Source: Candidatus Bipolaricaulota bacterium | GTDB lineage: Bacteria > Bipolaricaulota > Bipolaricaulia > UBA7950 > UBA9294 | Length of the DNA: 58,469 nucleotides | Assembly (NCBI GenBank): GCA_026390345.1 | Contig: JAPLGD010000063.1 | Location: 1 to 58,469, forward strand | Direction of reading: 5' to 3' | In this document: positions 1-8,976 of the stretch, piece after piece | Layout of the letters: the number at the start of each line of letters is the position of its first letter | Numbering within the stretch: position 1 is the stretch's first letter | Notes under the pieces: generated by a model | What the model was told of the DNA's origin: nothing | What the model saw: the letters and a program-made list of their open reading frames with translations, nothing else | Database searches by the model: none | Made by a program: the position numbers and the translations under genes

Positions 1-140
1 GCGGCGGCCCGTGGAGCGACAGCGTCCGATACGCCGTACTTGCCTCGGAGTGGCCAACCTCCCAGGCGTCACCCACTGCACCGGCGAGAGAACACCGGGC
101 GTGATCGCAGGCCCTGATCGCCGTCGCCCTTGTCGACAAC

Positions 141-163
141 GTCAAGAAGCAAGACGCGACCCC
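141..163 (+). repeat. CAAGAC-GACCC dispersed repeat, copy 1
   Basis: The motif GTCAAGAAGCAAGACGCGAC followed by CCC sits just past the end of the hicA remnant. Very similar words occur near 681, 2401, 2571 and 2636. Motifs of this kind often flank REP-associated tyrosine transposases in other genomes, but no transposase lies in this window. The rest of 1-197 contains no ORF I can support. Confidence 0.6.
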
Positions 164-2692: not shown

Positions 2693-3370
2693 ATGGCAAA
2701 GTGGACGATCGAGTCAGCACGCACATGGACGCACGTGGTCGCTGCCCTCGCCAGTGGATTGTCAATCTGGGCGATTGTGCTCGCGTTGGTGCCAAGGTTC
2801 ACGGATCCCGCAGTGAGTCTGACAACGAGTGTCTCACTTGCTTCATCAGTAATCCTTCTTGGGGCTGCCGTGTATGGGATCGGGACATGGCGGGAGCAGG
2901 AACGGCATCGAGCGAGGCACGATATCGCGCTACGAGCAATCGAAGCGACGCTTGAGGCATTGGAAAGACTCGACTACGCAAGGAATGTTCTGACCGATCA
3001 GAGAGAGGCATTCCGAGGTGCAATGGCAAGAGAAGAGCCATGGGAGCCAGAGGACAGGCTGCGACTCATTCAGGATGTTCGCGAGGTCGACGTTGCTCTG
3101 AAGCACTTGAGGACTCTGAGCCATCTCGTTCGCCTGCATCTCGGCGAGAAAGCCAGCATGGCCATGGAAGAACTGGTGGGCCTAACCAGGGAGTTTACAC
3201 GCACGTCGAACCTGCACTTCAATGGAGTCGGTCGCCAGCTTTCCGGGGACGAGTTCAAGCGCACGTACAATGTTCTGTACGGCTACGACGAGAAGAACCC
3301 CTTCACCAAAGAGCTGTTGGCCGCGCGGGACGGCCTCTTCAAGGCACTGGAGCCATTCCTCCTCAGCTAG
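2693..3370 (+). CDS. Two-helix membrane protein of unknown function
   Basis: A 225-residue protein I do not recognise. Two N-terminal hydrophobic stretches (about residues 13-35 and 44-64: HVVAALASGLSIWAIVLALV and SLASSVILLGAAVYGIG) form a helical hairpin, followed by a mostly helical charged cytoplasmic part. No enzymatic motif is visible. The architecture resembles small membrane proteins found in defence islands, and it lies tail to tail with the 584-residue nuclease-like protein (19-bp gap). It could equally be an unrelated hypothetical. No clear Shine-Dalgarno precedes the ATG. Confidence 0.65.
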   Translation: MAKWTIESARTWTHVVAALASGLSIWAIVLALVPRFTDPAVSLTTSVSLASSVILLGAAVYGIGTWREQERHRARHDIALRAIEATLEALERLDYARNVLTDQREAFRGAMAREEPWEPEDRLRLIQDVREVDVALKHLRTLSHLVRLHLGEKASMAMEELVGLTREFTRTSNLHFNGVGRQLSGDEFKRTYNVLYGYDEKNPFTKELLAARDGLFKALEPFLLS

Positions 3371-3389: not shown

Positions 3390-5144
3390 CTACTCCCTGG
3401 TGGGCTCCCGCCCAAACACGCGGCGGGAGCAATCTTCCAGGAAGCTGGTCGCAGTCTGCGCAAGCGACTGGTTGATTCTCAGTTCCCTCCTGAACTGCTC
3501 TGACGAAGTGACGAAGTCGTGGAGGCTTCCTCTTCGATTCGGGATCGCGGCGGAGAACGCTTCAAGAAGCTCCAGCAGATCTATGCCCGCCGAGCCTCCA
3601 AGATCCTCAAGGTCGTCGATAGTCACGACTGTGAGAGGCGCGAATCGCAGTCCGTCAGTTTGCCACTGCCAGGAACCGGCGACATGTTCGGCTCCAAGCT
3701 CCGCCACAAACAGGTCGGCAAGGAATTCGTTCACGAAAGGCTCTTGCAGGAGCCGGTCGTGCACCACAAGCACTGGATACACAAGTCTGTACGCTGCGCC
3801 AGTGTCCAGACCCTTCCATGCGCCAGATGCAAGCGCCCGAATGGCACGCGCCAATTGCCCGACTCCCACGGGGCGCTCGCCGTAGAGGTACTTCTCCTTG
3901 AGCACCCGTTGGAACTCACGTTCATCGCACTCAACGACGCACCTGTCAGGGATGAACACGGCTTTGGCTTCGACTAGGATGAGTCGGTCGACGTAGTCGA
4001 GACACGCATCGACCTCGAACACCTCCCCCTCGACATCCGGGCAAGGAACCTTGCAGTGGAGAACCTGGTGCAGCCCGGCACCGTCTGGAAACATCTCCGC
4101 CAGGATGTCCAGCGCATACTCTTCGAAAGAACTGCCGAAGGCGCCGAACACCTCGTTCTCATTTCTGACGGAGAGAAGCTGAAACAGCGGCCCAACCATG
4201 TAGCTGTCAGCCAACAGCAGCGCATCAGGAATGGCGCCTCTGCCATCGTCCATCGCAATGATTGGCTTCGTGCGGAACGGCTTGAGGCTGAACCCTGGAG
4301 CCTCCTCAAAGGAGCCTGGCAATTGGGCAGAGGGCCAAAGCTCACGTCGGAGAGACTCGCTGGTCGAGATTTGGTGCGCCTGATAGGCGGCATACACCGC
4401 CGCGTACTCGGTGTCCTGTCCGAGCGTGACTGCATCAGCCATGATCATCGTGTCCGCTAGCTGGAGATGCATGCTGATCAGCGCGCCTGCCGCGGACATG
4501 TACTCCAGCGGGGGTGCTCCCATGGCTTCTCGGAAGTCGTTCTCGAGACCCGGGTAGTACCTGGGCAGATACTCAAGGAAGAGCTTCCGGCCGCGGCCGA
4601 TGACCCTCCACGGATCGACGCCCGACAACCCCGCATCGAGCGCCGTGCGGAAGAACACGAGCGCGATGTCCTTCAAAGCTTCGATGTCGGCGTTGTCGTC
4701 CAGGACCTTGCGGATCTTCGTCTCCGAAGCCCATGAGCAGATCAATGCCGCCTTGGTGAAGAGATCCTTCTCGGCCTGCGTCCATTCGCCTCTAAGTCTT
4801 GGGGTGTCGGGATCGCACAGAAGCAGTGCCCAGCGCACAAGTTCGAGCAGGCCCCTTCGGGTAAGGAATGCCGTCTTCTCGGGGCAGTCCGCATCGCGTC
4901 GCCGCGCGACTTCGTTGAGCCTGGCACCTGTCTCGGCAGTGAGGAATGTGTTGGCAAGACACCGCTGCCGATCGAGCCTGCTCTGCGTTCTAGGTCCGGT
5001 CAACACCTGGTTCGCACGCGCACACATGACGAGAACGAGATCCAGAGGCAGTGGCGAGAGACACTTCCGAAGTGTTTCGAGAGAGCACTGCTCCTCCGGG
5101 AAGATGTCTGTGAGTTCCACGTAGGAACCGACCTCAGCCGCCAA
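3390..5144 (-). CDS. PD-(D/E)XK-like protein, fifth cistron of the type I RM operon
   Basis: A 584-residue protein I cannot assign to a named family. The N-terminal 300 residues are helical and featureless to me. Around residues 340-400 there is a nuclease-like core: SFEEYALDILAEMF (Glu341/342), then FEVDACLDY (Asp379), then ILVEAKA (Glu392-Ala-Lys394). That is the E...D...ExK pattern of PD-(D/E)XK enzymes. It follows hsdS by 32 bp on the same strand and probably belongs to that operon. The TTG start at 5144 has AGAGG about eight bases upstream; a GTG eight codons in is the alternative. The nuclease assignment is inference from the motif only. Confidence 0.6.
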   Translation of the reverse strand: MAAEVGSYVELTDIFPEEQCSLETLRKCLSPLPLDLVLVMCARANQVLTGPRTQSRLDRQRCLANTFLTAETGARLNEVARRRDADCPEKTAFLTRRGLLELVRWALLLCDPDTPRLRGEWTQAEKDLFTKAALICSWASETKIRKVLDDNADIEALKDIALVFFRTALDAGLSGVDPWRVIGRGRKLFLEYLPRYYPGLENDFREAMGAPPLEYMSAAGALISMHLQLADTMIMADAVTLGQDTEYAAVYAAYQAHQISTSESLRRELWPSAQLPGSFEEAPGFSLKPFRTKPIIAMDDGRGAIPDALLLADSYMVGPLFQLLSVRNENEVFGAFGSSFEEYALDILAEMFPDGAGLHQVLHCKVPCPDVEGEVFEVDACLDYVDRLILVEAKAVFIPDRCVVECDEREFQRVLKEKYLYGERPVGVGQLARAIRALASGAWKGLDTGAAYRLVYPVLVVHDRLLQEPFVNEFLADLFVAELGAEHVAGSWQWQTDGLRFAPLTVVTIDDLEDLGGSAGIDLLELLEAFSAAIPNRRGSLHDFVTSSEQFRRELRINQSLAQTATSFLEDCSRRVFGREPTRE

Positions 5145-5176
5145 TGGGGTTCGCCTCTCCCGACCGTCTGAACATG

Positions 5177-6409
5177 CTAGAGTCGCCCTCCGAAGGCACG
5201 TTGTGTGAGAGAGACAAGTAGGGCGTTCTCACCCTCCCGCGCAGTTCCATGTCTTTGACGCAGTTTGCCGATCGTCTCCACCATTCGTGTGAATCGCTCC
5301 TGCTCGCTCACCGGCGGAAGGATCAGCCGCAGGCGCCTCAAGCCCGTTGAGCTGACGTTGTAGTTCCCGGCCGTTGTCCGCGTCTCGCGAACAAGCCTGC
5401 TTCTGTATGTGGGAAAGGAGACCTGCTCACGGACGAAGACCGGCAGCGCTTCTGCATCCTGCCTGAGGCGAGCGCGTATGAGGTATGACGCAAACGCAGT
5501 TGGTTCGTTGCCGCCTTCAAACGCGGCGCAGCGGCCAATGTACTCAGGATTACCGTTCGTCCTTACGAACAGCAGATCCCCGTTCTCCAGCCGAAGCTTA
5601 TCGTGCTCACGGACGTCGAGCACGCAGTACTTGGCGTCATCTGAGGCGGTGATCTCGCCGCCGAGCACATTCGGAATCCGGAGGACCAAGGACGCTCCAA
5701 ACCCACGCTCGGCAACACACTTCTTCGATGTCCCGTAGCTGATGTCGGCCAGCAGCTTGCCGAACTCAACCACCGGCCATCCCTTCGGGTTCGTGACGGG
5801 GTCACCGAACATGTCGCGAAAGGCGGAGCGGAGGAACTGGTCGGCGAGGTCCAGAGTCTGCCGACGCTTGCGGCGAACGGCGTCGGCCTTGTCGAGAATG
5901 GCGGCGATTCGCCGCTGCTCCGGGAGGGAAGGAAGAGGGATCTCCGTCAGGCGGAGCTTGCCGATCGAGAGACTAGCCTGATTGACGCTTGGGTTGACGA
6001 ACCGCAGATACTGCGCCCGACACGCAGGCGACCGTAGGAACCGGAGGAGAAACGCAGGCTCGACAAGTTCCAAGGCCGGGCGGAGCGCAAGCAGATTCAT
6101 CCCGTGGATGAGCGGCGAGGGGAACCCCTTATAAAGCGCGCACTTTCCGATGTGCGGAAGGCTATTGATGTGACTGAACAAGATGTCCCCAGGGCGGAGA
6201 ACCCACTGGTCGAGAGTGCCACTGGCGACGCCTGCGTGGCCGACTCGGGTGGGGTCAATGTCCCCCGTCGATATCGTCTCAATCCGCGTTATCGGGATCC
6301 CTCCCGGAATCTCGCCCTGCTTGATTGAGAGGCCATTGCGGATCGACTCGCAGACGCTTCCGAGCTGGACCTTGGGCCACGTCAGCGCACGGCTACTGTC
6401 GCTCTTCAT
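5177..6409 (-). CDS. hsdS: Type I restriction-modification specificity subunit
   Basis: A 410-residue HsdS with two target-recognition domains: residues about 12-180 (WPKVQLGSVCESIRNG ... LPSLPEQRRIAAILDKADAVRRKRRQ) and about 210-400 (GWPVVEFGKLLADISYG ... LPPVSEQERF). The two LP-x-EQ-RI segments start the conserved helices that set the spacing between half-sites. HsdS decides which sequence HsdM methylates and HsdR cuts. Its ATG overlaps the end of hsdM by 17 nt, indicating translational coupling. Length is normal and the gene appears intact. The recognition sequence cannot be read from sequence alone. Confidence 0.93.
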   Translation of the reverse strand: MKSDSSRALTWPKVQLGSVCESIRNGLSIKQGEIPGGIPITRIETISTGDIDPTRVGHAGVASGTLDQWVLRPGDILFSHINSLPHIGKCALYKGFPSPLIHGMNLLALRPALELVEPAFLLRFLRSPACRAQYLRFVNPSVNQASLSIGKLRLTEIPLPSLPEQRRIAAILDKADAVRRKRRQTLDLADQFLRSAFRDMFGDPVTNPKGWPVVEFGKLLADISYGTSKKCVAERGFGASLVLRIPNVLGGEITASDDAKYCVLDVREHDKLRLENGDLLFVRTNGNPEYIGRCAAFEGGNEPTAFASYLIRARLRQDAEALPVFVREQVSFPTYRSRLVRETRTTAGNYNVSSTGLRRLRLILPPVSEQERFTRMVETIGKLRQRHGTAREGENALLVSLTQRAFGGRL

Positions 6410-7988
6410 CTAGCATCTTCTCCAGCTCGTCGAGATCCTTCCGGATGTCGTCTTCCAGCTCGCGGAGCCGCTGGAGGATGACCTTCGGCGGGTCGTACTC
6501 GACTTCCTCGTACTCCGTCTCCTTGTAGCGGTTGATCGAGAGGTCGTAGCCGTTCGCGACGATCTCCTCGACGGGGACGTAGAAGGCTTTGGCTCTGCGA
6601 TCGGCGAACTGCACCGGCGCGTCGCCCTGGCCATGGTTCCACTCCCGCCACTTCGCGACGATGTCGGAGATGTCGTTCGCCTCGATCTTGTCGCGCTTGT
6701 CGTCGAGTGAGTAGCCGTCGGCGTCCATGTCGTAGAACCAGACGCGCTCGGTCCTCCCACCCTTCACGAACACGATGACGGCCGTGCTGACGCCTGCGTA
6801 CGGCTTGAACACGCCCGACGGCATCGAGACGACGGCCTGCAGCTCGCACTCCTCGAGCAGCATCTTGCGCAGCGCCTTGTGTGCGTTGCTCGATCCGAAG
6901 AGGACGCCGTCCGGGACGATGACGCCGGCGCGGCCGCCGATGCGCAAGAGGTTCATCACGCGGTTGACGAACAGGAGTTCGGTCTTCGTTGTCTTGAGAC
7001 TCAATTCCTCGTGGATGTCGCCCTTGTCGATGCTGCCCTTGAATGGCGGATTGGTGAGAACGACCTGGTACTCGTCTTTCTCGTCGAAGCGCTTGGATAG
7101 CGTGTCGGCGTACTTGAGATTCGGGTGCTCGATGCCGTGCAGGAGCAGGTTCATCGCGCCGATGCGGACCATGGTCGTGTCGAAGTCGAAACCGTAGAGC
7201 GTCTCTTCGCGCAACAGACGCTGGTGCTCGTGGTTCGTCAAGAGGTCGCCGAGCAGGCCGCGTTCGAGGCCGTTCTCGTCAACCTCGCGGTGCTCGGGGC
7301 TCGTGAGCTGGGTGAGGATGTGCTGGTAGGCGCCGAGGAGGAATCCGCCGGTGCCGCAGGCGGGATCGCAGATGCGGTCGCCAAGCTTGGGATCGACGAG
7401 GGCGCAGATCATCTGAATGATGTGGCGCGGGGTGCGGAACTGGCCGTTCTTGCCGGCCGACGCGATCTCAGACAGCAGGTGCTCGTACAGATCGCCTTGC
7501 GTGTCCTGGAACGTCTGCCCCTCGCTCTGTTCGCGGGCAATCTCGGCGTAGATCTCGTCGATGATCCCGACGGCCTCGACGAGGAGCGACGCCTTGGGGA
7601 GGATGAACACGGCGTCCTGCATCGCCTCGGCGAACGGGTTCCCGTCGCCGCCGAGCGACTTGATGAACGGGAAGACGCGGTCGCGGACGTGGGCCAGCAT
7701 CTGCTCGCCCGGCAGGTGGCGGAAATGGCTCCAGCGGAGTTCGCTCTTCGGGATCTCGCGGTTGTCGAGCCCGGTGAAGGTGCCGTCGAACAGGGACGCG
7801 CGCTTCTGCCCGACGAACTGCGCCCGCTTCGCTTGCTCGAGATCGGTCGCGTCGAGCCGGCGCATGAACAGGAGATAGCTGATCTGCTCGATGGCCGTCA
7901 GCGGGTTGGCGATCCCGCCGGACCAGAAGCGGTCCCACAAGGCATCCACTCGAGATCGGATCGTTGGCGACAGCACGCTACCCACCAT
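6393..7988 (-). CDS. hsdM: Type I restriction-modification DNA methyltransferase subunit
   Basis: A 531-residue N6-adenine methyltransferase. It shows the HsdM N-terminal helical domain (NPLTAIEQISYLLFMRRLD), the SAM-binding motif DPACGTGG (residues 208-215) and the catalytic NPPF (313-316). It methylates host sites with HsdS and is the core of the HsdR2M2S complex. The ATG at 7988 was chosen over the tracked 8078 because homology begins at MVGSVLSPTIRSRVDALWDRF; it overlaps the 3' end of fic by 11 nt. Intact by inspection. Confidence 0.93.
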   Translation of the reverse strand: MVGSVLSPTIRSRVDALWDRFWSGGIANPLTAIEQISYLLFMRRLDATDLEQAKRAQFVGQKRASLFDGTFTGLDNREIPKSELRWSHFRHLPGEQMLAHVRDRVFPFIKSLGGDGNPFAEAMQDAVFILPKASLLVEAVGIIDEIYAEIAREQSEGQTFQDTQGDLYEHLLSEIASAGKNGQFRTPRHIIQMICALVDPKLGDRICDPACGTGGFLLGAYQHILTQLTSPEHREVDENGLERGLLGDLLTNHEHQRLLREETLYGFDFDTTMVRIGAMNLLLHGIEHPNLKYADTLSKRFDEKDEYQVVLTNPPFKGSIDKGDIHEELSLKTTKTELLFVNRVMNLLRIGGRAGVIVPDGVLFGSSNAHKALRKMLLEECELQAVVSMPSGVFKPYAGVSTAVIVFVKGGRTERVWFYDMDADGYSLDDKRDKIEANDISDIVAKWREWNHGQGDAPVQFADRRAKAFYVPVEEIVANGYDLSINRYKETEYEEVEYDPPKVILQRLRELEDDIRKDLDELEKMLDEERQ

Positions 7989-8976
7989 CCTTCGCTGCCA
8001 GCTTGCGCCACTTGGCTCCACGTCCTTTGCCTTCCATAGCCACGAGGCCTGCCTCCCGCAACTGGTTGAGCACGACACGGATCATGTCGCGGCTCACTTC
8101 GGGGCAGTCGCGCTCTAAATCCGAGATCGCAAAGGGCGCGATTCTTCGGCGTACGGCCGCCTTGACGAGTTCGGTCTTCGATCCGCGTGCCGTCTGGATC
8201 GTGCCGACTCGATCCTCGAACTCCCGGTACGCTGCGGTGAGCACGCCCCAGAAGTAGTTGAGCCACGGATGCACGTCATGCGTCCCCTCGTGCCATCCTT
8301 GCGAGCTCCGCTCGAGAACCTCGTAGTACGTCTCTTTCGACTGCTCGAAGACTCTTTCCAGGCTGATGAAGCGCCCGACGTCGTACCCGGCGTGGTAGAG
8401 CGTGAGGAGGGTGAGCAGCCTCGAACAGCGGCCGTTCCCGTCAGCGAACGGATGGATGCATAGGAAGTCCAGCACCGCGAGGGGAACTACGAGAAGAGGC
8501 TCTCGCTGATCCTCGTTGATGGCCGCCTCGTAGCGCTCGACGAGTCTCGCCATCGCCCCCGGCGTTTCGGCAGCGGATACGGGGCGAAATCGCACGCGCT
8601 CCGAGCCATCGTCGTGTCGCTCGATGATGAGGTTGTCTTTGGCTTTCCAGTATCCGCCAGCCGAGGCCGAGTAGCGGTTGATCATGGCGTGGCACTGCAG
8701 GATGGTGTTGAGGGCAACGGGCATGTGCTCCGCTTGCTCGTGGATGAGCGCCAGCGCATCTCGATATCCCGCGATTTCTTCTTCGGATCGGTTGGTTGAT
8801 GCCGTGCTCTTCAGGACCAGCGCCTCAATGCGACCCCGGTCGGCCGTGATTCCCTCCAGGCGGTTCGAGGATTCGACAGACTCGATCATCGCGGCGGCTT
8901 TGAGCGTGTCGAGAATCTGCGGCGTCTGGTGGGAGTAGAGCTCCTGCTTCCCGCGGTACTCGCCGAGCGTCGTCAT
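7978..8976 (-). CDS. Fic-domain protein inside the type I RM operon
   Basis: A 332-residue Fic-family protein. The active-site motif HPFADGNGRCSR (His175, Asp179, Asn181, Arg183) is complete, and an N-terminal SSNRLEG (Ser37...Glu41-Gly42) matches the (S/T)xxxE(G/N) inhibitory helix of class II Fic proteins. Such enzymes transfer AMP or other phosphate-linked groups to protein hydroxyls. A winged-helix-like C-terminus (SRDMIRVVLNQLREAGLV) could bind DNA. It sits between hsdR and hsdM, 42 nt after hsdR and overlapping hsdM. Fic genes within RM operons are seen elsewhere; the target is unknown. Confidence 0.9.
   Translation of the reverse strand: MTTLGEYRGKQELYSHQTPQILDTLKAAAMIESVESSNRLEGITADRGRIEALVLKSTASTNRSEEEIAGYRDALALIHEQAEHMPVALNTILQCHAMINRYSASAGGYWKAKDNLIIERHDDGSERVRFRPVSAAETPGAMARLVERYEAAINEDQREPLLVVPLAVLDFLCIHPFADGNGRCSRLLTLLTLYHAGYDVGRFISLERVFEQSKETYYEVLERSSQGWHEGTHDVHPWLNYFWGVLTAAYREFEDRVGTIQTARGSKTELVKAAVRRRIAPFAISDLERDCPEVSRDMIRVVLNQLREAGLVAMEGKGRGAKWRKLAAKDGG

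Follow-up and report, generated by a model that had tools for sequence, protein, structure and literature searches.

The window, the whole stretch of 58,469 nucleotides analysed here, contains five minus-strand genes in the order hsdR-fic-hsdM-hsdS-X (Table 1). The last of them, X, encodes a protein that the earlier note had described as a 584-residue product of the fifth cistron of a type I RM-Fic operon, 32 bp after hsdS and on the same strand. The length, the gene order and the distance were all recovered: hsdS ends at 5177, and positions 5145-5176 form the spacer before X. Co-transcription of X with the hsd genes is presumed. The GC content of X per codon position (0.66/0.43/0.71) follows a coding pattern shared with the hsd genes. 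Its TTG start codon matches the starts of full-length homologues, whose N-termini align with that of X (MAAEVGSYVELTDIFPEEQ / MNNVKILVLVKDFFPNEQ). X is therefore a real gene. The plus strand of 3390-5144 is not an open frame. For hsdM, comparison with orthologues, which align from residue 35, indicates that the true start is probably near 7976, where they begin.

Table 1. Features of the hsdR-fic-hsdM-hsdS-X operon and of protein X
Feature	Position	Strand	Basis
hsdR, type I restriction subunit, 946 aa	9019..11859	minus	
Fic protein; HPFADGNGR active motif and SNRLEG inhibitory-type motif both intact	7978..8976	minus	
hsdM, type I N6-adenine methyltransferase	6393..8078	minus	
hsdS, type I specificity subunit, 410 aa	5177..6409	minus	
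Shine-Dalgarno-like GGGAGAGG, 9 nt upstream of the TTG of X	5154..5161	minus	
X, GapS1-like PD-(D/E)XK protein, 584 aa	3390..5144	minus	ORF; NCBIfam GapS1 E=5.5e-8; hhalign 97.9 (E 3.3e-13); motif conservation
N-terminal region of X, residues 1-285, predicted helical; proposed (putative) sensor/regulatory part	4290..5144	minus	AlphaFold secondary structure, pLDDT mostly <50
Predicted PD-(D/E)XK core of X, residues 329-461	3762..4160	minus	H329-351, E359-367, E375-383, E387-393, helices 400-440, E454-461 (AlphaFold2)
E341 codon, in helix FGSSFEEY	4122..4124	minus	E in 17/20 homologues, D in 1
D379 codon, predicted metal-binding Asp	4008..4010	minus	D in 20/20; aligns with Can2 Asp278
E392-A393-K394 codons, (D/E)XK motif	3963..3971	minus	E or D at 392 in 20/20, K394 in 19/20
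Q430 codon, QLA motif of the helix after the core	3855..3857	minus	Kept in 18/20

Several further features were observed near the operon. A 192-residue ORF on the minus strand (1649-2227) matches Pfam DUF6998 (1.1e-8) and the PADLOC model PDLC03209, "type II methyl-directed restriction enzyme" (2.8e-53), and is possibly a further restriction gene by the operon. Between this gene and X, two non-coding 61-nt direct repeats, 92% identical and 64 nt apart, are present at 2537-2661. A 225-residue ORF on the plus strand (2693-3370) converges on X and shows weak membrane-protein similarity only (HlyIII 0.0077, SLATT_1 0.2). A dispersed motif, GTCAAGAAGCAAGACGCGACCC, was found between genes at window positions 139-163, 679-703, and 2399-2423, and in the genome on C38, C76, and C39; two copies were counted in the window versus none in shuffles, and six in the genome (<=3 mismatches) versus none for the reversed control.

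Nuclease site and fold of X

The spacing E...D...EAK had been read in the earlier note as typical of PD-(D/E)XK enzymes. Conservation agrees with this reading: since E341...D379...E392-A-K394 is maintained across 20 homologues with only ~12-26% identity to X (Table 1), the motif is not a chance occurrence. The restriction-endonuclease-like core on which the earlier note had made its case depend is present in the predicted structure. With a three-sequence alignment, AlphaFold2 reached a mean pLDDT of 48.6 over full-length X and of 64.0 over residues 285-584 (pTM 0.66). Within the core, where pLDDT is only ~65-80, the predicted order is helix, three strands, helices, strand, the canonical alpha-beta-beta-beta-alpha-beta arrangement of PD-(D/E)XK proteins. 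The top Foldseek matches were the R.BspD6I small subunit, Can2, and McrC (E 0.002-0.02, none reaching 0.001), a ranking of the predicted model that supports this fold but does not prove it.

Searches of PDB sequences by phmmer with X alone or with a five-sequence profile returned no match. With a 12-sequence family profile, Can2 (7bdv, E 0.0017) was the only solved protein to fall under E 0.01, the match lying at its nuclease core. When residues are counted along the profile alignment, D379 of X falls on Asp278 of Can2 and E377 on Glu276; D379 is conserved across the family, but E377 is not. It has been shown that the E276A/D278A change abolishes Can2 activity (PMC7969007). The Gxx FE helix and the E-L-D ... 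E-C-K motif of Can2 also align with X. Can2 and Card1 are CRISPR ancillary nucleases that share the PD-(D/E)XK core with X, Can2 being the best-ranked solved fold; however, only the core is common: X has no detected CARF domain, and its neighbours include no type III CRISPR genes. Taken together, the sequence comparisons and the predicted fold leave little doubt that X carries a PD-(D/E)XK nuclease domain. Its activity would be expected to be metal-dependent cleavage of nucleic acid, either DNA or RNA.

Relationship of X to GapS1

The earlier note could not place X in a known family, and no model in Pfam, PADLOC, or PHROGs matches it. Among the 18,950 models of NCBIfam, the sole match is GapS1 (NF047931), a Gamma-Mobile-Trio-encoded anti-phage protein, over residues 201-421 with 32.1 bits (E 5.5e-8). 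This is ten-fold under the curated cut-off of 320 bits, so that X does not reach the threshold of the family proper. Run against the same model as a control, Klebsiella phage ST437-OXA245phi4.1 gp49 (L011), which has been described as GAPS1-like (PMC12774648), scored 393 bits. Six of the 12 members of the X family match GapS1 and nothing else in NCBIfam. Profile-profile comparison by hhalign of five X-type proteins, without any GapS1, against seven GapS1-type proteins gave an alignment of 324 columns (probability 97.9, E 3.3e-13) in which the nuclease motifs coincide (FGSSFEEY, VDA, and EAK of X on FGSIFENL, VDF, and DAK). Because this homology covers the nuclease and the flanking regions, and because half of the members match GapS1 themselves, X is assigned to a wider GapS1-like superfamily.

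In a 20-protein tree, GapS1 proper formed its own clade (100/99) without X, and X grouped with the homologue of genome G201 (89/85). The AU test disfavours a clade of X with GapS1 proper alone (p 0.021), in a tree whose branches are long, and the placement of X inside the superfamily is uncertain. As judged from these comparisons, X is a divergent relative of GapS1 that lies outside GapS1 proper. GapS1, which is homologous to X residues 179-539, likewise has a helical N-terminal half, an FG(S)xFE helix followed by D and (D/E)xK, and a C-terminal alpha/beta tail, and both are often found on mobile elements. X differs in being ~70 residues longer, in its ~16% identity to the Klebsiella phage member, and in having E in the motif where GapS1 commonly has D; it is located in a type I operon, whereas GapS1 stands alone. 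Given the ten-fold shortfall in score and the result of the AU test, the trigger and outcome of GapS1 may not carry over to X.

Genomic settings of X and its homologues

The earlier note had seen in X an extra nuclease-like component beside R, M and S; membership of X in the type I enzyme itself is not supported. Three further genomes of the family share the hsdR-fic-hsdM order (identity 71-74, 58-59, and 82-83%), and Fic thus seems to be a stable part of the operon. The comparison of whole operons rests on a single complete one, in genome G029 (locus L082), where orthologous R-Fic-M-S genes (73/59/82/36% identity) are present without X. Its hsdS encodes 693 residues, longer than that of the window, with an additional C-terminal part of ~280 residues. 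In this stretch (L082 825-6465, minus strand), hsdS is followed by a DUF3800 gene, an unassigned 312-residue ORF, and an SLFN AlbA_2/HATPase_c_4 gene, possibly another accessory cassette. None of the 32 other searched genomes of the family contains X either. A role as core type I subunit was rejected in view of the G029 operon and of the fact that most homologues have no adjoining hsd genes. Missing from this operon and from the 32 other family genomes, X is an optional extra at a 3' position whose content varies. Type I operons with other extras were also seen: hsdR-fic-hsdM-hsdS is kept in other genomes of the family, and a RhuM gene is present at a type I locus of genome G410. The operon of X differs from these by its GapS1-like extra cistron. 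Relatives of Fic on plasmids also carrying X-type genes were not seen in the four records checked.

Genes of the X type are sporadic, occurring in ~2-4% of diverse genomes. Homologues with ~25% identity were found on Hymenobacter plasmids and in genomes G201 and G147; remoter ones are in G410, G298, G187, G332, and G115. Scans of viral contigs with X, alignments, and two homologues as queries revealed no relatives, tblastn of phages with X gave no match, and one scan of a genome collection returned only the G201 homologue that was already known. The carriers of GapS1 proper are phages, an ICE, and plasmids, and in P2-like phages of Klebsiella the gene adjoins the integrase.

The G410 locus carries hsdS, PDDEXK_3, hsdR, RadC, the X homologue, and RhuM on one strand. 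In G298 the homologue adjoins a HEPN gene, a D12 methylase, and a PDDEXK_11 nuclease. In G187 (L015 308-7099) it overlaps a DUF4209/DUF7380 gene (PADLOC PDC-S39) beside a UG21-like defence reverse transcriptase (DRT). In Hymenobacter sp. PAMC 26628 the homologue follows an integrase and lies opposite a class II pAgo and a type IIG MmeI-like enzyme, and in H. tibetensis it comes after MmeI. DUF4209 is also annotated by the H. tibetensis homologue (L034), making it a possible recurrent partner of GapS1-like genes. On other Hymenobacter plasmids the homologue stands alone, with copper genes, AbiEii/AbiGii, HigB, or a gene annotated as restriction endonuclease in the vicinity. Five lineages (G201, two in G147, G332, and G115) have no obvious defence neighbour, as judged mostly by eye. 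About half of the ten independent lineages are therefore in clear defence settings, and the homologues do not show the pattern that the earlier note had named as speaking against a defence nuclease, a location mostly outside defence contexts. Of the candidate new defence nuclease proposed there, the PD-(D/E)XK nuclease, its position as fifth cistron and the frequent location of homologues in defence loci are retained, while the failure to place X in a known family gives way to GapS1-like identity.

Linkage to type I systems was observed in two lineages only, those of X and G410. The AU test disfavours the two as sisters (p 0.0255), hinting at repeated recruitment of GapS1-like genes by type I loci; two lineages do not suffice for claiming a statistical link to such systems.

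Proposed role of X

We consider it fairly likely that X is a stand-alone GapS1-like anti-phage effector that a type I R-M/Fic operon has acquired at its variable 3' end, and that it acts as a latent, infection-triggered nuclease. By homology, its helical N-terminal half would keep the protein silent and recognize a signal of infection. The trigger would most likely be a phage protein, by analogy with GapS1. GapS1 is reported (Mahata et al. 2024) to be triggered by a phage capsid protein and to induce dormancy. The C-terminal half, with E341, D379, E392-A-K394, and Q430, would provide the metal-dependent PD-(D/E)XK nuclease. In an infection that escapes restriction, cleavage of nucleic acid by X would halt either the cell or the phage, with dormancy or abortive infection as the presumed outcome. 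It could thus form a second layer behind HsdRMS against phages that evade restriction. X is probably a back-up anti-virus nuclease, not a new kind of system.

The main rival to this proposal is guarding of the kind known for EcoprrI, where PrrC provides the precedent of a latent nuclease encoded as an extra cistron in a type IC operon (PMC3874165). Here the HsdRMS complex of the operon itself would keep X silent and free it when a phage inhibits restriction, the type I enzyme being the sensor and X the executioner. The position of X as fifth cistron, 32 bp past hsdS, is consistent with such a role, as is the GapS1-like gene beside hsdS and hsdR in G410, which is disfavoured as a sister of X. 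However, most homologues live without hsd genes, and the orthologous G029 operon does without X. PrrC is an ABC-type anticodon nuclease, and X has no detectable similarity to it: a test for PrrC/RloC in Pfam, PADLOC, and NCBIfam revealed neither an ABC-ATPase domain nor a PrrC match in X. We regard guarding by the type I enzyme as doubtful. Equally doubtful is the corollary that a GapS1-like nuclease came under the control of the type I enzyme, and perhaps also of Fic, forming a guard that acts like PrrC but derives from an unrelated nuclease, and that this happened at least twice.

It is unlikely that X is a direct restriction DNase, attacking incoming phage DNA, perhaps by reading the HsdM methylation mark, with no abortive outcome. 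R.BspD6I and McrC are among the nearest solved relatives of the predicted fold, and methylases are linked to the homologue in several loci, which would fit such an activity. X nevertheless has no detected recognition or ATPase domain of its own, and there are plasmid homologues without a nearby methylase, so that distinction of self from non-self via the HsdM mark cannot be general. A housekeeping or mobile-element nuclease that merely follows hsdS would agree with the five lineages without an obvious defence neighbour, but it is very improbable in view of the sporadic occurrence of X-type genes, the absence of X from the 32 other family genomes, and plasmids and phages as carriers, about half of the lineages having defence neighbours.

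GapS1 proteins, the fold of the nuclease, and type I operons with additional genes were each known already. A literature search limited to open-licence articles revealed neither the GapS1-like identity of X, far under the curated threshold, nor its position in a type I/Fic operon, nor any other description of a GapS1-like cistron in such an operon. X extends the GapS1 anti-phage family far beyond its curated boundary: members that score under the threshold occur on plasmids, in MAGs from several phyla, and in type I operons. The conserved residues of X are candidates for mutation. In this type I R-M/Fic operon, the 3' end behaves as a site where extra effectors are exchanged. If X does answer to the failure of restriction, it would be a second, unrelated case of the PrrC principle.
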